From positions 1-44,876 of the forward strand of contig JAIBBI010000027.1 in NCBI GenBank assembly GCA_019694755.1: 44,876 nucleotides of DNA, read 5' to 3'. Shown here piece by piece: positions 29,023 to 38,473 of this stretch. The stretch is from Gemmataceae bacterium (GTDB lineage Bacteria; Planctomycetota; Planctomycetia; Gemmatales; Gemmataceae). Below the pieces are notes generated by a model. The model had not been told where the DNA came from. It searched no databases and worked only from the letters and a program-made list of their open reading frames with translations. Position 1 is the stretch's first letter; each line of letters begins with the position of its first letter. The translations under genes and the position numbers were made by a program.

Positions 29023-30612
29023 TCACTCAAGATCCTTGAGGCCGGTCGTGTCTCGCTTGTAGAGCGGCAGGTGGCGGTAATAAACCTCGAGCGTGAGCAG
29101 CGACAGGCAGGTGGCGCAGAGCCGGCCGCCGCCGTCGCCGGTGTGCGTCCGGTCCGGGGTCCACGACCCGCGGTTCGGCCCGACGCCGTTGTCCTGCGTG
29201 TCGATCAGCAGGTCGCGCATTTGCGGGTTCCAGACCTTGTGCCAGTCCTCCTCGGTCGCGCAGAAGTGCATGACCTGAGTGGCGTAATAGTAGTAGTAGA
29301 TCTCGCTGAGCCCCTTGCGGGGAAGGTTCTTTTTCAGGTTCTCGACACCGGCCATCATCGCGGGGTTCTTCGGCCCCCAGCCGAGGTAAGCCCGGCAGAG
29401 CAGGCCCACGGCCGTCATGTTCGGCCGGCCGCCCGCGCTCGAATAGCCGTAAGCCGCACCCTTCTGCGTCTGCATCGTGTCGAGGAAATTGCCGACTTTG
29501 TAAAACGCTTCTGCGGGCACCTTCAGCCCGGCCAGCTTGGCCGACTGCAACGCCTGGAGGCACCATCCCGTGACGGAGACATCGCCCGGCTGGCCGACTG
29601 AGTACCGGAAGCCGCCGGCTGAGTGTTGCGCCTTGAGCAGATAGTCGACGCCGCGTTGGGCCGGGCCGCGGAGCGTGGAATCGTTGGTCATGCCGAGCGC
29701 TTCGCAGAGCGCGACGACACAGATGGCATGGCTGTAGTGGCGATAAGTGGTGTCGGTGCCCATCAGGCCGTTGCCCTGCTGTTTGTTGACCAGCCAGCGC
29801 AGGCCCAGTTCGACGCACTTGGAATACTCGACGGAGTTCTTGTCCTTCGGGTCGAGCTTGTGGGTAATGCCGCCGGCGAGGAAGGGCAGCAGCGCGAGTC
29901 CGGTCGCGCCGAAGTCGTCGTCGACGGTGCCCTCGAGCATCTTCCATTTGCCGTCAGGCTTCTGCTGCTTCTTGAGCCAGGCCAGGCCCTTCGCGACGGC
30001 CGCTTCGGAAGCGGGGTTACCGCCCTCGGCCGCGACCATCTTCTCGCGGGTCGCGCCGGACCGCCCGCCGAACATCTGACCGGGGATCAGCCGGCCGCCA
30101 ATGTAGCCGCCCGGCCCGCCGACCATGCTGGCTGCACCCGGAATGTTGGATTCGCTTCCGCCACCAGCGCCGCCGCCGACGCCGGGCGGCGGACTGACGG
30201 TTTGCCGAGCTGCGTTGTCCGCGCCGACGATGCCGACCGGTTCTTCGGGCCGGACGATGCCGGGTACGCTGATGTCTTCGATTCGGTTGAGGTCGTAATT
30301 CGTCTTCTTGTTCGGGTCGAGGCCTACGTCCTCGTTCGTCAGCGCCTGCTTTTCTTCGGGCTTCTCGTCGGCGCGGACGACGATCGGTTTGTCCTCCGGC
30401 ACCGGCGAGGCCTGATCGCCGGCCCGCGATGCGAGGAATGCGAAGATGATTGCGGCGGTAAGGTGCAGGCCGCCCGAGATGGCGAGGGCCGGCACCTGTC
30501 GGTGCATCAGACGATCGTCGTCGTCCGTCGCACGACGCACGACGCCCGGCTGGATCGTCTGCCGATCCGGCGCTTTTGCGGGTTCAGTCGTTGCCGGGCT
30601 TGCGCTGGCCAT
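29023..30612 (-). CDS. TonB-like single-pass protein with periplasmic prenyltransferase/squalene-cyclase-type repeats
   Basis: The 529-residue protein has a 41-residue cytoplasmic start, one helix ALAISGGLHLTAAIIFAFLA (about 43-62), a charged Lys/Glu/Pro stretch (EDKPIVVRADEKPEEKQ), a Gly-rich linker (about 140-180) and, from about 200, alpha/alpha-barrel repeats such as GLAWLKKQQKPDGKWK, GLRWLVNKQQGNGLMG, GVDYLLKAQHSAGGFRY and GDGGGRLCATCLSLLTLEVYY. The helix has Ser46-x3-His50, the spacing of the Ser-x3-His pair that TonB uses to couple to ExbB/ExbD. ExbB and two ExbDs are encoded just upstream. The Asp-rich catalytic motif of real squalene-hopene cyclase (DxDDTA) is missing, so this is a cyclase-fold module and probably not a cyclase. 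Confidence 0.85.
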   Translation of the reverse strand: MASASPATTEPAKAPDRQTIQPGVVRRATDDDDRLMHRQVPALAISGGLHLTAAIIFAFLASRAGDQASPVPEDKPIVVRADEKPEEKQALTNEDVGLDPNKKTNYDLNRIEDISVPGIVRPEEPVGIVGADNAARQTVSPPPGVGGGAGGGSESNIPGAASMVGGPGGYIGGRLIPGQMFGGRSGATREKMVAAEGGNPASEAAVAKGLAWLKKQQKPDGKWKMLEGTVDDDFGATGLALLPFLAGGITHKLDPKDKNSVEYSKCVELGLRWLVNKQQGNGLMGTDTTYRHYSHAICVVALCEALGMTNDSTLRGPAQRGVDYLLKAQHSAGGFRYSVGQPGDVSVTGWCLQALQSAKLAGLKVPAEAFYKVGNFLDTMQTQKGAAYGYSSAGGRPNMTAVGLLCRAYLGWGPKNPAMMAGVENLKKNLPRKGLSEIYYYYYATQVMHFCATEEDWHKVWNPQMRDLLIDTQDNGVGPNRGSWTPDRTHTGDGGGRLCATCLSLLTLEVYYRHLPLYKRDTTGLKDLE

Positions 30613-30649
30613 GATGCGCCTCGTTGCAATTCACCAGATCATTCTACCG

Positions 30650-31504
30650 TCAGTTCGCCGACGGGCTTCCGGGAAACGGGTTGATGTCCCGGAATTCGGG
30701 CGGCGATGCATTGCGGGCGGCCGCGACCCGGGCCTGGTTCCGCCGGTCGGCCATGCGAAACGCCAGGACCAACCCGAACACCACGACGCCGAACGCGATC
30801 AGGGCTATCAGCAGCAGGGGCACGGAGGCAAATGCAGCGTCCTGCGGCGACGGCTCTACTGGCGGCAGCACCCGCTCCGTCATCGGCCCCCCGACGATCA
30901 GCGGGGCAATCCGGTACCCGTCGCCCGCGCGGAAGCGGTAGATCTTGTAGAAAAACCCGGCGAGCGTCACACGCCGGTCCAGTTGCTCGGACACGGGAAT
31001 ACCCGCGGGCAGGTCCGTCAGCAAGACGCAGTACGAGTATTCCCGGTAGATTTCCGAGAAGACCCAGGCCTCGTAGAGGTGCTTGACGCCGTCGGCTTCG
31101 AGGGCGCGGGTCGGACCGAGATCGCGGATCCTCTTGAGCCGGCCCTCGACGATCACCACCTCTCCGCGGTACTTGGCTGAATCGGGGCCAAGCATGTTCG
31201 CGAAGGTGATCTCTTTCCGCGCCGCGGCGAGGAAGTCGGCGGGACCCACCTGACGGGCGAATCCGACGATGTAGTCGTAGGCCCGGGCTTCGTCGGGATT
31301 CTCCGTCTCGCTTCGGACGGGAGAATTGTCTTCCACGAAGCGGAGCAGAGAACGGTTCAGGTCCGCGGGCCGGAGCGTGGCCGGCTTGCCGACCGGCGGG
31401 TGTGGTTCGGGCGACGACGGATCGACCGGCTTCGGCTGCGCGGCTCCGGGCCCCGCCATCGCGAGGCTGAAGAAAGCGACCGTCACCATCCATCGAGTCG
31501 TCAT
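30650..31504 (-). CDS. Exported single-pass membrane protein inside the ExbB/ExbD cluster
   Basis: The 284-residue product has a signal peptide (MTTRWMVTVAFFSLAMAGPGAAQ), a periplasmic part with a helical region (RAYDYIVGFARQVGPADFLAAA) and a beta-barrel-like region (YRGEVVIVEGRLKRIRDLG, VTLAGFFYKIYRFRAGDGY) suggestive of an OB-type fold, then one transmembrane helix (about 226-250, SVPLLLIALIAFGVVVFGLVLAF) and a basic cytoplasmic tail ending near PPEFRDINPFPG. AAGG precedes the ATG, which is one base from the ExbD stop. Its strict position between ExbD and the TonB-like gene argues for a role in the same machine. No known family is recognised. Confidence 0.78.
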   Translation of the reverse strand: MTTRWMVTVAFFSLAMAGPGAAQPKPVDPSSPEPHPPVGKPATLRPADLNRSLLRFVEDNSPVRSETENPDEARAYDYIVGFARQVGPADFLAAARKEITFANMLGPDSAKYRGEVVIVEGRLKRIRDLGPTRALEADGVKHLYEAWVFSEIYREYSYCVLLTDLPAGIPVSEQLDRRVTLAGFFYKIYRFRAGDGYRIAPLIVGGPMTERVLPPVEPSPQDAAFASVPLLLIALIAFGVVVFGLVLAFRMADRRNQARVAAARNASPPEFRDINPFPGSPSAN

Positions 31505-31505
31505 G

Positions 31506-32015
31506 TTACCTTCGGATCAGGTCCGGGGGCGGGGAGAAGCCCACCGATTGGAACTTCACGCCCAGGCACACGTCCATCACGGCAATGAGGTACTCGTACT
31601 TGAGTGCGCCATCCGCCTCGATCTTCACGTTGGCCGGGCCGACTTCATTCCGGATCGTCGCCAGCACCGACTTCAGTTCTTTCAAGTTGCCCTCGGCGAT
31701 CACCGTCGAGTTCTCTTTCTCCTTGACGGTGAGCTTGTCGATGACGCCCAGACGCGATTCGATTGCCACGGTGATGTCGACGCCGGGTTCGTTCTCCGGG
31801 TTGCTGAGGGCGAACGGGTCGACCTGCTCCGCGGTCTTCGCCTTTGCCTGCCCTGCGGCCGGCATGAACATGTCCATCTGACCTTCGGCCACGCTGGGCG
31901 GGTTGAACGTCAGGATGAAGAACGACAGAAATTGAAACGTCATGTCGAGCATCGCCGGGATCGGGATCTCGACCTTGGCGTTGTCGCCTTGGGAGTGTTT
32001 CCGCTTGCGACGCAC
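31506..32015 (-). CDS. ExbD/TolR-family protein, second copy
   Basis: I start this at GTG 32015 (MRRKRKHSQGDNAKVEIPIP), five bases after the preceding ExbD stop; the ATG at 32081 would lie inside that gene. The 169-residue product has a short cytoplasmic N-terminus, a single helix with the essential acidic residue (AMLDMTFQFLSFFILTF, Asp24) and a periplasmic C-terminal domain (VKIEADGALKYEYLIAVMDVC). ExbD/TolR converts the proton-motive force with ExbB/TolQ. The two ExbDs differ considerably in sequence, so a heteromeric stator is possible. Confidence 0.88.
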   Translation of the reverse strand: MRRKRKHSQGDNAKVEIPIPAMLDMTFQFLSFFILTFNPPSVAEGQMDMFMPAAGQAKAKTAEQVDPFALSNPENEPGVDITVAIESRLGVIDKLTVKEKENSTVIAEGNLKELKSVLATIRNEVGPANVKIEADGALKYEYLIAVMDVCLGVKFQSVGFSPPPDLIRR

Positions 32016-32020
32016 GGGAC

Positions 32021-32500
32021 CTATCCTCGCAGTTGAACAGTGGCCCGGAGCTGAATCTTGCGTAGCCCGATGTCGGAACACTTCCGCATGACGCGGTAGA
32101 CGCTGGAGTATTCGGCCGCGCGATCGGCCCGGATGATGACGAGCGTCTCGACCGGGGCCTGCGCCGGGTCCGCGCCGGCTTTGCGGGCGGCCTCGCCGGC
32201 TCGCCTTTTAGCGTCGTCGTAAACTCCTTGCAGATACACGGCCACTTCGTCGTCGTTGGTCAGTGGGTGATTCCGGCCGACGGCGAGCATTTCGCCCTTG
32301 TTGTTGATGGTCAGAAACACGATGTCGGAGTCCGTGCCGGTGGTCGAGGGCTTCGCCGACTGCGCGACCGGCAGCTTGATCGTCTGGTCCACCTGCTCCA
32401 TGACGAAGTTGGCGCACATCATGAAGAACATGACGAGTTGAAGCACGAGGTCCAGCAGGGGGACCAGGTCCGGTTCTTCGTGTGCGTTGCCGCCGGCCAT
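32021..32500 (-). CDS. ExbD/TolR-family protein, first copy
   Basis: The 159-residue protein starts MAGGNAHEEPDLVPLLDLVL and has the single transmembrane helix of ExbD/TolR with a proton-carrying Asp (Asp17 in VPLLDLVLQLVMFFMM). The periplasmic domain ends in VIIRADRAAEYSSVYRVMRKCSDIGLRKIQL, the family's typical alpha/beta end. It follows the ExbB gene after 21 bp. Together the two ExbDs and ExbB would form the inner-membrane motor, moving protons to drive a TonB- or TolA-like transducer. Confidence 0.9.
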   Translation of the reverse strand: MAGGNAHEEPDLVPLLDLVLQLVMFFMMCANFVMEQVDQTIKLPVAQSAKPSTTGTDSDIVFLTINNKGEMLAVGRNHPLTNDDEVAVYLQGVYDDAKRRAGEAARKAGADPAQAPVETLVIIRADRAAEYSSVYRVMRKCSDIGLRKIQLRATVQLRG

Positions 32501-32521
32501 ATTCGGGTTCCGCCGGGGGGA

Positions 32522-33364
32522 TCAGGACTTGGCCGGGCTTGCCGCCCGCGATTCGGACGCCGGGGGCGGGGCGGGCGGCGTGCCGGTCGTCGGTGCTGTC
32601 GGCCGCTTCGAGTTGTGGTACATCTGCGTCAGCAGGTCGTCGGCCAGGTTCTCCGTGTCCATCGAGATTTTCGTGACCCGGTTGCGGAAGAACACCGTGA
32701 AGAACAATCCCGGCACCGCGAGGCCGATGCCGACCATGGTGACGACGAGCGCGTGCGAGATGCCGTCGGCCAGTCGCTGCGCCTCCACGCGGGCTCCGGG
32801 TTGGGCCAGCGCCTTGAACGACAGGATCATGCCGAACACGGTGCCGACGAGGCCGATGTACGGCCCCAGCGAACTGATCACCGCGACGTAGTTGATGAGC
32901 TGTTCCTTCTGCGAGCGGAGGCTGGCGACGGTGTTGAACGCGGCATCGCGGGCGTCTTCGAGGCCGTACTGGAGCCGGGCCATGCCGTTGGCGATCACCC
33001 GGCCGAGGAACGAATTGTCGGCCCGGGCCATGTCGAATGCTTCCTTGAACTTTCGCTGGTTCACCGTGTCGGTAAACGCCTCGACGAATCCGGGCGGGAT
33101 TGCCACCGCCATCCGCAAGTCGAGCGCGAGCATGACCACGAGCGCGACGAGGCTCATCGAGAGGAACAGAAAGATCGTGCCGAATACCCAGCCGATCGAA
33201 CGGAGAAAGTGGGAGACGAAACTCGGCTCGCCAGCGTCCGGGGGTGCTTCTGCGAGCGGCGAAGGGTCTTGTGGCTGAGCCATGGCACCCGGGACGGCCC
33301 AGAGCACCAGCAGCGTCGCCGCGAGGATCAAAAGCAATAGTCGCGTCGAGACCCGGATCCGCAT
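32522..33364 (-). CDS. ExbB/TolQ/MotA-family proton channel with N-terminal signal peptide
   Basis: The 280-residue protein starts at the ATG at 33364; a longer frame to 33514 lacks a good start. A leader (MRIRVSTRLLLLILAATLLVLWAVPGAMA) and a short Pro/Ala region precede the MotA/TolQ/ExbB domain: TM1 GWVFGTIFLFLSMSLVALVV, the cytoplasmic part DNSFLGRVIANGMARLQYG, then TM2 YIGLVGTVFGMILSFKALA and TM3 LVVTMVGIGLAVPGLFFTVFF. The GTVxGM and GIGLAVPG motifs are conserved. Extra N-terminal signal sequences are known in ExbB of several phyla. This gene begins the ExbB-ExbD-ExbD-membrane protein-TonB-like operon. Confidence 0.92.
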   Translation of the reverse strand: MRIRVSTRLLLLILAATLLVLWAVPGAMAQPQDPSPLAEAPPDAGEPSFVSHFLRSIGWVFGTIFLFLSMSLVALVVMLALDLRMAVAIPPGFVEAFTDTVNQRKFKEAFDMARADNSFLGRVIANGMARLQYGLEDARDAAFNTVASLRSQKEQLINYVAVISSLGPYIGLVGTVFGMILSFKALAQPGARVEAQRLADGISHALVVTMVGIGLAVPGLFFTVFFRNRVTKISMDTENLADDLLTQMYHNSKRPTAPTTGTPPAPPPASESRAASPAKS

Positions 33365-33541: not shown

Positions 33542-36500
33542 CTACCGCCCGCCGCCGTGTCGGTGGCCCGTTCCAGGGGTTGTGCCGAAGAGCGTGTGCT
33601 CCTTGTTGCCCCGCGAGTTGACGTACGCGATCAGGTCCAGGATCTCGTCGCGGCTGAGCTTGTCGAGCAGACCCTTCGGCATCAGAGACGACGGCGACTT
33701 CTCGCGGGCCTCGATGTCCGACTTGCGGATCGTGATCGGCTTGGAGCCCGCCACCGGGTTGTCCACGATCTTGAACGCGTCGGCCGTCTCTTCGACGATC
33801 AGCCCGGTCACCGTCTGCCCGGAGGCGAGTTGAATGACGTACGACTGGTATTTCTCGTTGATCCGCGCCGACGGGTCGACCATCTCGCGCCAGATGTCGA
33901 GCGGAGTCCACTTCGGGTCGATCTTCATGAGGTCGGGGCCGTACTCCTGGCCAACGCCGTCAAGCTTGTGACAGGCGACGCAGTTGGCGATGCCGAACAT
34001 CGATCGGCCGTTGGCGAACGATCTGCCATGCGTCATTGTGGCGACCGTCTCTGCCAGATCCTCGTACTTCCATTCCGTGCGCGTCCGGCGATCTTTCAGC
34101 AACGGGTCCTTCGCCGCGATACCGTGGGCGACAAGGTACGCGTCGGGGCCTGCCTGGAAAGCCTCCTGATCCGCGACGACGTACAGCGCACCGTACATCG
34201 TCCGCCAGTGGCCGGGGTACGTGCACACGTACGGGTACACGCCCGGCTCGCGCGGCGCGGTAAAGGCGAGTCGCTCGCTCCGGCCCGGCTGAATCAGCTT
34301 GCTGCTGAGGAGGACGGCCGGGAGTCGCGGCACGTAGTGGCGGGCGGCGGCATCCGCGCTCGTGGCATCCGCCTCGGCCGCGTTGCCGACGGCCTCGAGT
34401 GTGCCCGGCTGGGCGATGACGAAATTGTGCGGCATGAAGTCCGAGTTTTCGAACAGGAACTCGACCCGCTGCCCGGCCTTCAGCGTGAGCGTGTCCTTGT
34501 CGTACGACATGCGCTCGGGGAGCGTGCCGACCCGGATTACGCGAATGCCCAACTCGCCGAGTCGGGCCCGCGCTTTGCGTGCGTCGTCCGGCGGCAGCAA
34601 TGCCGCGAGCGAGTCGGCAAAGTCGAGTGCGCTCGTGGCCGCCGGGCCGGTCCGCTCACCGACCGGCGTCTCGGCAATCATCCGGGTCAGCGAATCGATT
34701 AGCGCTGGGGCGGCTTGCCGGGGCCAGTCGGCCCGCGGCAGCTTTTGCAGCGCGAGGATCGCGAAGTCGCGATCGGCCGGGTCGGAGACGAACCGCGCCA
34801 GCGCGGCAAAGGTCTCCGACTCCCGGCCACGCACGCTCGTCAGCGCGTTCATTGCCGCACGACGAATCGGGGAGTCGTTGCCGGCGATCGCTATCGCGCG
34901 CTTCGACTCGGGCGCAGGGAATGGCCCGGCGACGGCGACCGGCCGCCGCATGTCGTCGAGGATCGTGACGGTGAATCCGTCGAGTCGCCGGCCGAGCTTT
35001 CCGTCGGTCCGGTTCCAGACGACGACGGATTCCACGGGCACGGCCGAGCCGAGGTCGACTTCCCACCACGGGTCGGCGATGTTTTCCTGCGTGTGGGTCA
35101 CGCTGTTTTCGGTGTAGATGCCGGAGGTATTGCGGTCGATGGCCCGCTTGGCCTGCCCGCCGCTGGCCGTGGACTTCTGAGTCGCGCGGCCCTGCGGGGC
35201 GACGTTCGTACCGGCAGAGATGACCTCGACCTCGGCGAGCGACAGCGTCCGCTGCCGGCCCGGCAGATCGATGCGGACGAACCGCCCGATCGGAGGTGAG
35301 GAGGACTCGGTTGAAGCCGTGCCGTCGAGCATCTTGAGCACGCGCGGGTAGGCGGCGGTGCGCAAGGCCGGGTCGGGCAGCATAGGCAGCGAGGCGAGCC
35401 AATCGGTCGTGGCCCCCGGAGACTTTCGGGCCAACTCCCAAGCTGGCTCGATTGACCCGGCCGAGAGCGCGAGCGCAACAAAGGCAGCCTGCCGCGAGAT
35501 GGCCCGGCGGGCGGAGGTGGCCAGTTGCTCCCAGTCGCGCCGCAGCACTTTACTGTCGGATAACCCGGCAGCAATCCGGACCAGGTCCGCCAGCGCGGTC
35601 GGCGATTCCACGACATCGGGCCGGCCGTCGAATTGGCGGACGACTGAGATGAGGATCGATCCCTCCGTCGACTTCTGCCGGGCTGCCAGGTCGCGAAGCG
35701 CGGCCTTGCGGAGGTCCAACCCCAGCCCGGGCCGGGTAAGCAACTCGGCCAGCACTTCCATGTCGCGGGGCATCTCGAGCAGTTGATCGATCGGTGCTTC
35801 GCGGATGATGAACCGCCGGCCTGCGTCGGTCGTCAGCGCGAGCCGTTTGCCCGCCACCAGCGCCGACTTCCAGAGCGGATCGAGCACCCGGTGCGATTCG
35901 GTGATCACGAAGTCGAGATACCGGTCCGTCGGTTGCGTCTTTGCCAAAAGCAGCACTTCGACCGCCTCGGGATTCGTCAGAAAGCTTGCCGCCCGCGCCG
36001 CTTCGAGGCGGACGCGCGGGTGCCGGGCCGATGCGGCGGTCCGCAGCAGGTCGAGCGCTTCGGGGACTCGGTGCCGCTGATAGCACATCACCCGGACAGC
36101 GCCCGCCTGTGCGCGGAAGTCGGGGGAATTGAGGAGGGGCTTCAGGTCGGCGGCAGTGACCCGGTCGTGCCACTGACGGACCCAGAGCGATTCCAGCCGG
36201 TGATGCTCCACTTCGGGGTCTTTCGGGTCGAGCGATGCGGTCCAAGTGTCGAGTTCCTTCATCACGGTGTCGGAGTCGCGGGAGCCGAGTTCGCCGCGGA
36301 CGCGGTAGCGAACGCGGGCCTCGGGGTGTTTCAACAGGTCGAGCAGTTCCCGCACCGGTCGGCCGGAGATGGCGGGCGGCCGGGAGAGTGGCCGGCCCTC
36401 GTGCGACACGCGGTAGATCCGACCGTGCGTACGGTCGCGGCTGGGATCGCGGAGGTTGTGCTGCATGTGGCCGATGATCGGGTTGTGCCAGTCGCTGATG

Positions 36501-38473
36501 TAGATCGCGCCGTCCGGCCCGATCTTAATGTCGCTGGGCCGGAAGTTCGGGTCGCTCGACGACAGTACCGGCTCCTGCTCGACGCCCTGAAAGCTCGCGC
36601 CGTCGTCGTCGATTCGGTAACGAAGCACGCCTTGGAAGCCGATCACGTTGCCGACGAGCATGTGGCCCTGCCAGTCATCGGGCAGGTGCCGGCTACTGAC
36701 CACTTCTATCCCCGGGCACGGTCGCGTGCGTTGCTGATACACCTGCGGCGGGGCCGGGTGCTTCATCGGGTACGGCAGGTGACCGCTGAACAGAGCGGCA
36801 TGGTACGGCTGCGATCCCGTGCCGTCGACGACGATGTCCTGACCCCAACGGTCGAATGCATGACCGTGCGGGTTGGCAAAGCCGAAGGCGACATAGGTCT
36901 CGAACCGATAGCTCCGCGGTTCGAAACGATACACGCCGGCGTTGGCGTTGCGGAGCGGCGGGCCCCAGGGAGTCTCCACCTGCGTGTGGTGAAAGGTGCC
37001 TTCCTGCATGTAAAGTGCACCGCCCGGGTCGAGCACAAAGCTGTTGGCGGCATGGTGAGTGTCGGCCGAGTCGAGGCCGTGCAGGATGCGCTCGCGCACG
37101 TCCGCTTTGCCGTCGCCGTCGGTGTCTTTCAGGAAGATCAGGTCGGGGACGTTGGCGACGATGACTCCGCCGTTGACGAGTTCGAATCCCGTCGGGTTGT
37201 GGAGCCGGTCGGCGAAAACGGTCATTTTGTCGGCCTTGCCGTCGCCGTCGGTGTCTTCGAAGATCAGGATCTTGTCGTTGGCCGGCTCGGTGGGCAGTGC
37301 GTGTGGGTAGGTCTGCCAGACGGCGACCCAGAGCCGGCCCTGTGCGTCCCAAGTCATCTGCACGGGATTGACCAGGTACGGGAACTGTTCCTCGGATGCA
37401 AACAGATTGACCTTGAGCCCCGGGCCAACTTTCATCGCCTTGATTGATTCCTCGCCCGAGAGGAAGAGGTGCTTTCCGCCTGGGCCGTTGCCGGGCTTGT
37501 TGGTGATGACGGGGATGGGAGCGGGCACGTTGGAGTCGTCGGGCAACATCGCCTTCCGATCGGTCTCGCTCCAGGGCGACTTGTCCTTGATCCGGGCAGC
37601 CGCCCAGATCACCTTGTCGCGGTTGGCCGTTCCGACGTCGAGAATCTCCATCTCCCGCTGGGCGACCACTCGATTGGTCTGGTCGTTGACGAACTTCAGA
37701 TCGGCCCGGCCGCCGAAGATGGAGTAGCCGTCGGTCGTCCGGTAACGCTGGAACCACATGGCATTCTTCTGATTCACCAGGTCTCGCAATCGCTCGGCAC
37801 CTGTGACCGCCCGGCCGCCTGTCAGCTTTGCGGTAACGATGCGGGCGACTTCCTTCGCGCCGGCCTCGTTGAGGTGGATGCCGTTGAAAGTCAAGGGGCC
37901 GACGCCTTTGTTGGTGGCTGGTTGCTCGAGCGAAACGAAGTCCACGCCGTTGGCCCGGGCGACCTTCTCCATCGCGGCCGAGTACAGCTCAATGTTGGCG
38001 TTGATCTCCGTGCCGGCATGCAGCGACGGGATCCCCGGGTTGTGAAACCGGACGGGCGAGAACAGCACGACCCGCGGAGCAGAAGTGCCGTTGTACTTTT
38101 GCGACGCGAGGTGTTTGAGATAGTCGTCGAGTTCGGCGCGGAACTTCGGCAAGCCCGCGGGGCCGGCGAACGACTCGTTGTAACCGAAGAAGGCGAAGAC
38201 CACGTCGGCCCGGCACCGCTTCAGCCAGTCGTCCGGTGAGCCGAAGTTCGCGCTGCGGAGTCGCTTCGTGATCTCGTCGCCCGAGAAACCGAGATTGCGG
38301 ACGGTGAGGTTGTGCTCGGGAAACGCGGCGTGGAGGTGGGCTTCCATCCAGCCGTCATGCTGCATGCGTTCGGCTAGGGTGTTGCCGACGAGGCATATGT
38401 GATCGCCGGGCCGGAGTTCGACGGCACGGGCCGGGAACGCACAAAGTAGAATCAGGAGTATCGCCGTACGCAT
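33542..38473 (-). CDS. Giant multidomain SGNH / propeller / HEAT / discoidin / cupredoxin / cytochrome c protein
   Basis: The 1643-residue exported protein (signal MRTAILLILLCAFPARA) combines, in order, an SGNH-hydrolase-like domain (about 20-215), a PVC-type membrane-bound-dehydrogenase propeller (about 345-740, with DTDGDGKAD calcium loops), HEAT-type helices (about 740-1050), an F5/8-type discoidin domain (about 1060-1200), a cupredoxin (His1349, Cys1417, His1422, Met1426 in VCTYPGHWRTM) and a haem c domain (CVACH 1498-1502) with the usual C-terminal LASGQTVTGLIVEE tail. The SGNH triad looks lost: GNT (30-32) stands for GDS and NGIH (197-200) for DxxH. It is probably a periplasmic redox or carbohydrate-related enzyme; the electron donor is unknown. 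It is divergent from the HEAT gene at 38620 and stands just upstream of exbB. Confidence 0.9.
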   Translation of the reverse strand: MRTAILLILLCAFPARAVELRPGDHICLVGNTLAERMQHDGWMEAHLHAAFPEHNLTVRNLGFSGDEITKRLRSANFGSPDDWLKRCRADVVFAFFGYNESFAGPAGLPKFRAELDDYLKHLASQKYNGTSAPRVVLFSPVRFHNPGIPSLHAGTEINANIELYSAAMEKVARANGVDFVSLEQPATNKGVGPLTFNGIHLNEAGAKEVARIVTAKLTGGRAVTGAERLRDLVNQKNAMWFQRYRTTDGYSIFGGRADLKFVNDQTNRVVAQREMEILDVGTANRDKVIWAAARIKDKSPWSETDRKAMLPDDSNVPAPIPVITNKPGNGPGGKHLFLSGEESIKAMKVGPGLKVNLFASEEQFPYLVNPVQMTWDAQGRLWVAVWQTYPHALPTEPANDKILIFEDTDGDGKADKMTVFADRLHNPTGFELVNGGVIVANVPDLIFLKDTDGDGKADVRERILHGLDSADTHHAANSFVLDPGGALYMQEGTFHHTQVETPWGPPLRNANAGVYRFEPRSYRFETYVAFGFANPHGHAFDRWGQDIVVDGTGSQPYHAALFSGHLPYPMKHPAPPQVYQQRTRPCPGIEVVSSRHLPDDWQGHMLVGNVIGFQGVLRYRIDDDGASFQGVEQEPVLSSSDPNFRPSDIKIGPDGAIYISDWHNPIIGHMQHNLRDPSRDRTHGRIYRVSHEGRPLSRPPAISGRPVRELLDLLKHPEARVRYRVRGELGSRDSDTVMKELDTWTASLDPKDPEVEHHRLESLWVRQWHDRVTAADLKPLLNSPDFRAQAGAVRVMCYQRHRVPEALDLLRTAASARHPRVRLEAARAASFLTNPEAVEVLLLAKTQPTDRYLDFVITESHRVLDPLWKSALVAGKRLALTTDAGRRFIIREAPIDQLLEMPRDMEVLAELLTRPGLGLDLRKAALRDLAARQKSTEGSILISVVRQFDGRPDVVESPTALADLVRIAAGLSDSKVLRRDWEQLATSARRAISRQAAFVALALSAGSIEPAWELARKSPGATTDWLASLPMLPDPALRTAAYPRVLKMLDGTASTESSSPPIGRFVRIDLPGRQRTLSLAEVEVISAGTNVAPQGRATQKSTASGGQAKRAIDRNTSGIYTENSVTHTQENIADPWWEVDLGSAVPVESVVVWNRTDGKLGRRLDGFTVTILDDMRRPVAVAGPFPAPESKRAIAIAGNDSPIRRAAMNALTSVRGRESETFAALARFVSDPADRDFAILALQKLPRADWPRQAAPALIDSLTRMIAETPVGERTGPAATSALDFADSLAALLPPDDARKARARLGELGIRVIRVGTLPERMSYDKDTLTLKAGQRVEFLFENSDFMPHNFVIAQPGTLEAVGNAAEADATSADAAARHYVPRLPAVLLSSKLIQPGRSERLAFTAPREPGVYPYVCTYPGHWRTMYGALYVVADQEAFQAGPDAYLVAHGIAAKDPLLKDRRTRTEWKYEDLAETVATMTHGRSFANGRSMFGIANCVACHKLDGVGQEYGPDLMKIDPKWTPLDIWREMVDPSARINEKYQSYVIQLASGQTVTGLIVEETADAFKIVDNPVAGSKPITIRKSDIEAREKSPSSLMPKGLLDKLSRDEILDLIAYVNSRGNKEHTLFGTTPGTGHRHGGGR

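Follow-up and report, generated by a model that had tools for sequence, protein, structure and literature searches.

The window analyzed here is a whole contig (C34) of 44,876 nucleotides from the 5.6-Mb genome of a Gemmataceae bacterium. On its minus strand, positions 29023–33364 hold a unit of five genes encoding an ExbB/TolQ-type subunit, two distinct ExbD/TolR-type subunits, a protein here called P4 and a membrane-anchored protein with an alpha/alpha toroid (Table 1). The original prediction, made from the sequence letters, had described five closely spaced genes on one strand, and open reading frames (ORFs) and Pfam matches confirmed this arrangement, with gaps of 21, 5, 1 and 37 bp in the order ExbB–ExbD1–ExbD2–P4–toroid. 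ExbB and both ExbDs pass the Pfam cut-off. Among related loci, 52 extend far enough upstream to show the neighbouring genes, and the five-gene order is complete in 37 of them; in the others, part of the unit lies elsewhere. On the evidence of sequence and structural models, the toroid protein most probably transduces the proton-motive force in the manner of TonB and TolA, driven by ExbB/ExbD, with the toroid as the putative output domain.

Table 1. Features of the five-gene unit, with positions in the window (pLDDT, predicted local distance difference test; aa, amino acids).
Feature	Position	Strand	Description
ExbB/TolQ-type motor subunit	32522..33364	-	280 aa; signal-like N-terminal segment, long-ExbB type; PF01618 E 9e-23
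ExbD1, first ExbD/TolR-type subunit	32021..32500	-	159 aa; PF02472 E 4.6e-18
ExbD2, second, distinct ExbD/TolR-type subunit	31506..32015	-	169 aa; GTG start; PF02472 E 7.6e-10
P4	30650..31504	-	Hydrophobic/signal N-terminus, predicted periplasmic OB-like beta barrel, C-terminal membrane helix
Toroid transducer (putative)	29023..30612	-	529 aa; N-tail in the cytoplasm, then a single membrane helix, a disordered linker and the alpha/alpha toroid
Transmembrane helix with Ser46 and His50	30427..30495	-	Residues 40-62
Disordered linker	30061..30414	-	Residues 67-184; first portion charged (Lys/Glu/Pro), second Gly-rich; pLDDT mostly <50
Alpha/alpha toroid, six helix hairpins	29077..30057	-	Residues 186-512; AlphaFold pLDDT mostly >90
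C-terminal signature TLEVYYRHLPLYKR	29053..29094	-	Residues 507-520

In its membrane helix, the toroid protein carries Ser46 and His50 within the segment PALAISGGLHLTAAIIFAFLA, at exactly the positions given in the original prediction; a Lys/Glu/Pro stretch, a Gly-rich stretch and the toroid follow. In cryogenic electron microscopy, Ser16 and His20 of TonB contact Ser34 and Trp38 of ExbB (PMC12215075). Conservation of the Ser-x3-His pair, on which the original prediction depended, was borne out by the aligned sequences (37 complete units plus the window), with Ser46 present in 39/39 and His50 in 37/39, while other helix positions around the pair drift among operon copies. The remaining two sequences have Asn, a full substitute for His20 of TonB according to Swayne and Postle (2011), as cited in PMC8928145. 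Over all fetched loci, S-x3-[H/N] in a membrane helix was found in 115 of 120 toroid proteins versus 19 of 505 other ORFs, the latter being ORFs with one to three helices, some of them spurious. Both this contrast and the recurrence of the gene order go beyond chance. The linker contains a conserved short segment, L91-T-x-x-D-x-G-x-D (residues 91–99), which from its sequence is possibly the equivalent of a motor box, and a weak hydrophobic alternation at residues 76–81.

The motor subunits have the residues expected of their families: in addition to the Pfam matches, ExbB retains the pore Thr motif GLVGTV, and the transmembrane aspartates of the ExbDs are invariant (Asp17 of ExbD1 in 44/44, Asp24 of ExbD2 in 46/46). 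Ser69 of ExbB, the counterpart of the TonB-contacting Ser34 of Escherichia coli ExbB, is Ser in 44/44 operon ExbBs, with positions matched by eye. At the position of Glu176 of E. coli ExbB, the window protein and most of its ExbB lineage have His, possibly a change in the ion path, and a few members (L051 and L052) keep Glu. The presence of two different ExbDs suggests a mixed ExbD pair in the pore. P4 was modeled by AlphaFold (pLDDT 86) with an OB-like barrel at about residues 116–210 and a C-terminal membrane helix at 220–266. The top Foldseek matches of this model are OB-fold proteins (E about 1e-3), and no family was found for P4 in Pfam, NCBIfam or PHROGs. P4 is conserved in the operons; where the unit is split, its gene is found sometimes with the toroid gene and sometimes with the motor.

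The toroid head is related in fold and sequence to squalene cyclases. The top structural match of the predicted model is squalene-hopene cyclase 2sqc (VIA-align, Z 28.4 over 288 residues), a family profile matched the 3sqc sequence (hidden Markov model, E 6e-14) and a QW-like motif is present in 191 of 196 toroid homologues. No Pfam or NCBIfam family matched the toroid protein over its cut-off; SQHop_cyclase_N/C and Prenyltrans appeared as sub-threshold matches, and scores against the curated cut-offs were 21.8 versus 26.2 bits for PF13249, 20.1 versus 26.1 for PF13243 and 24.1 versus 431.1 for TIGR01507. A von Willebrand A (vWA) domain was not among the Pfam matches. The catalytic DxDD acid of squalene cyclase is replaced at the aligned place by Tyr293-x-His295, the Tyr being invariant in 43 homologues, and no known catalytic motif is complete in the toroid. 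As to whether DxDD is missing from all homologues, a check named in the original prediction, 14/196 homologues have a D-x-DD string somewhere within their final 360 aa; in the twelve listed it stands in a different context. Within the C-terminal signature, E509-V-Y-Y-R513, P516 and R520 are invariant among the 43 homologues. Conserved positions are more frequent in the inner, cavity-lining helices than in the outer ones (37/94 versus 16/97, p 6e-4; inner and outer helices assigned by hairpin order, not coordinates), and most of the conserved residues lining the cavity have polar or aromatic side chains. This pattern points to a specific cavity ligand that would not be squalene-like; such a cavity would suit a glycan, peptide or envelope polymer better than it would a hopanoid or sterol. 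Elsewhere in the same genome are three toroid paralogues (L107:8912-9922, L108:9007-10071 and L109:3539-4648) that have no long N-terminal linker and helix, two of them with a signal-like start.

The toroid family was detected in 100 of 102 genomes of the order and in 216 of 246 drawn across the phylum, most of them draft assemblies, usually in several copies, many with the TonB docking residues; ExbD was present in 238 of the 246. The closest relatives in named genome records, found with an alignment query after a single-protein query gave none, are mostly labelled Gemmataceae or Planctomycetota. One record titled Bacteroidales bacterium (L114) contains a toroid gene and a P4 fragment and is probably a mislabelled metagenome bin. 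The original prediction had also tied the toroid gene to ExbB/ExbD. As adjacency this is often untrue: especially in Pirellulales-type genomes, many toroid copies stand alone, yet retain the motif, and around these Pirellulales-type copies no neighbouring gene cluster was found to recur in as many as 6 loci. As co-occurrence within the sampled genomes the link stands: where the toroid gene is unlinked, an ExbB–ExbD–ExbD set, in some cases with P4, is encoded elsewhere. An ExbB match was found in 18/18 genomes checked, comprising 16 order-mates chosen for unlinked toroid copies (among them G092, whose sampled copy is without the motif) and two with the linked unit; the match in G030 is weak. 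Among 13 regions around close ExbB relatives, 12 have at least two ExbDs behind ExbB, seven of these with P4, and one ends at a contig edge. In six unlinked motor sets inspected gene by gene, no other S-x3-H membrane protein lies alongside, barring ExbB itself in two.

The association also extends beyond one motor lineage. Behind a second ExbB lineage, 23% identical to the first, ExbD and a toroid protein likewise follow (L226, L181, L162, L286 and L285), so the head has been joined to no fewer than two lineages of motor. Elsewhere in the class and phylum, ExbD precedes a longer toroid protein with S-x3-H in its last N-terminal helix, as in L221, L222 and L225; several of these loci also have ExbB, and L226 has a TPR gene in front. 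Some loci have, downstream of ExbB and ExbD, genes for giant proteins (about 1,170 to 1,300 aa) with the toroid at the end (L181:5038-8574, L154:751-4638, L286:2339-5875 and L285:4468-7992). The L286 protein has PD40 (TolB-like propeller) repeats by Pfam, and those of L181 and L154, which show the same layout by eye, have a further membrane helix, bearing S- or A-x3-H, ahead of the toroid.

A separate TonB paired with this motor, which the original prediction had named as a refuting case, was not found: TonB_C (PF03544) has no match in the whole genome and none in 93/102 genomes of the order, and the six motor sets above have no other transducer-like protein with S-x3-H beside them. Within the order, Plug domains occur in 26/102 genomes, or in 14/71 when the better assemblies are counted. 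Both the absence of TonB_C and the rarity of Plug argue against an ordinary Ton system. The host genome encodes one TonB-dependent receptor barrel despite having no TonB_C (L251:1003-3279, C65; PF00593, 6e-20). It also encodes a second TonB-like protein (C260:49557-50555, corresponding to L104:7558-8556, plus strand) with the transmembrane segment ISGLSSAAIHVGCAVLLVLLLNF, which contains S-x3-H, a Gly-rich linker and a C-terminal domain without a Pfam match; a separate ExbB–ExbD–ExbD set lies beside it on the opposite strand. On contig C80, a vWA protein with an Asp in its N-terminal helix (L106:9619-10881, plus strand) resembles the pore-helix vWA class of PMC12204202; a match to the MotA/ExbB family lies some 1.2 kb away. 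Squalene cyclase was detected in 77/102 genomes of the order and not in the other 25/102 (E 1e-30); the host genome has a real squalene/oxidosqualene cyclase (C72, 552 bits). Upstream of the unit, on the same strand, an ORF of 1643 aa (33542-38473) looks by eye like a planctomycete GDSL/dehydrogenase-like/cupredoxin/cytochrome c fusion and, with its stop 177 bp ahead of the ExbB start, may not share the unit.

In the mechanism we propose, an ExbB pentamer and an ExbD1/ExbD2 pair, each ExbD with a proton-binding Asp, would form a 5:2 inner-membrane motor. Through Ser46 and His50, the toroid protein would dock its membrane helix on the outside of ExbB, and the disordered linker would transmit the pull into the periplasm. 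There the toroid would act as the output head, its central cavity gripping a specific partner, and P4 may be an accessory subunit, a membrane-anchored OB-fold protein. Several observations weigh against this mechanism. The evidence for coupling comes from sequence, synteny and single-chain prediction, the homologues are non-independent samples, and many of them are not adjacent to motor genes; the comparison set of ORFs above includes some spurious ones. Only S and H of the SHLS motif are retained, its Leu and second Ser being variable (positions 57 and 61), the linker shows no clear D-box of the classical kind, and Trp38, the other TonB contact of E. coli ExbB, is not retained in the operon ExbBs, again with positions matched by eye. 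The heads of E. coli TonB and TolA are small, and a toroid of this size is unusual.

Other explanations have to account for the same data. The toroid could be a membrane-anchored periplasmic enzyme, active on glycans or lipids, that the motor moves or gates instead of pulling an outer-membrane partner. We regard this as unlikely. Residues of the inner helices and the rim show strong conservation and are polar or aromatic, and the fold is common to enzymes (cyclases, epimerases and GH76), but the lack of any complete known catalytic motif and of a Pfam or NCBIfam family over cut-off speaks against it, and conserved cavities occur in binding proteins too. A related proposal, in which the periplasmic toroid is a proton-driven enzyme or clamp, catalytic or ligand-threading and powered mechanically by the ExbB/ExbD motor, seems to us quite doubtful; if it were true, ion flow would be coupled to envelope chemistry or polymer handling and not to an outer-membrane receptor. 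It is very unlikely that the toroid protein functions independently in the inner membrane and hitch-hikes in the operon beside ExbB/ExbD with no mechanical coupling to them. The many homologues away from motor genes and the three paralogues would suit such a protein, but linked and unlinked copies alike retain the residues with which TonB and TolA dock, residues scarcely seen in other membrane ORFs, the toroid is tied to two different ExbB lineages, and the motor co-occurs in the sampled genomes.

Two proposals concern the partner. That the unit energizes TonB-dependent outer-membrane receptors in place of TonB has the single receptor barrel of the TonB_C-free host genome in its favor, but it is decidedly improbable given how few genomes have Plug compared with the toroid family, and the second transducer at C260 is an equally good candidate for that receptor. 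The Plug distribution does not support a TonB-dependent receptor as a general target. The other proposal, an outer-membrane lipid transducer with the toroid binding hopanoid or sterol, takes up a guess of the original prediction. The squalene-cyclase ancestry of the head and the real cyclase of the host are consistent with this guess, which nevertheless appears highly improbable: the fairly complete genomes G094 and G044 are without a detectable squalene cyclase and keep the full unit (L051 and L073), and the one-contig G071, likewise without one, keeps the system in split form, arguing against a hopanoid or sterol as obligate ligand; the largely polar or aromatic cavity also speaks against the guess. 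While the lipid guess was not supported, the wider interpretation of an ExbB/ExbD-driven transducer with a cyclase-fold output survived these tests and extends across the phylum.

The results suggest a widespread planctomycete machine, apparently undescribed, that acts outside the inner membrane. The literature searched, which did not cover subscription papers, contained no toroid transducer and no paper pairing ExbD with squalene, prenyltransferase or toroid in planctomycetes, in line with the original prediction, which knew of no described system with this pairing. If the transducer reading is true, a new output head is added to the short list of ExbB/ExbD-driven transducers, and interchangeable heads (TonB, vWA and toroid) on 5:2 motors are suggested; S46, H50 and the cavity residues would then be handles on the role of the proton-motive force in planctomycete envelopes, in an order where TonB is mostly absent.

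Like TonB–ExbB–ExbD and TolA–TolQ–TolR, the system has an ExbB/ExbD motor that keeps the equivalent of ExbB Ser34, one N-terminal Ser-x3-His helix, a linker and a periplasmic head. It differs from both in having no TonB_C or TolA head, the S and H alone of SHLS, two different ExbDs and the extra P4. The toroid protein would work like TonB and TolA, yet is outside that family by its head domain. With squalene-hopene and oxidosqualene cyclases it shares the alpha/alpha toroid fold and QW-like repeats, but it has a single toroid domain of about 330 aa, has no DxDD acid and, by its predicted topology, would be membrane-tethered in the periplasm. The nearest described case is the family of vWA force transducers (Williams-Jones et al. 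2025, PMC12204202), in which a helix with SHLS-type Ser and His, a disordered linker and a large non-TonB head are encoded with a tolQ-like gene and, in the PVC (Planctomycetes–Verrucomicrobia–Chlamydiae) group, a pair of tolR-like genes. PMC12204202 nowhere uses the words 'squalene', 'toroid', 'prenyltransferase' or 'cyclase', and the section consulted describes no P4-like gene. The toroid protein shares the helix, linker and motor layout of these transducers, and a TPR gene opens the toroid cluster of L226, as in the vWA clusters, with a similar long gene there in L285; the vWA transducers end in a von Willebrand A fold, whereas the head here is an alpha/alpha toroid.

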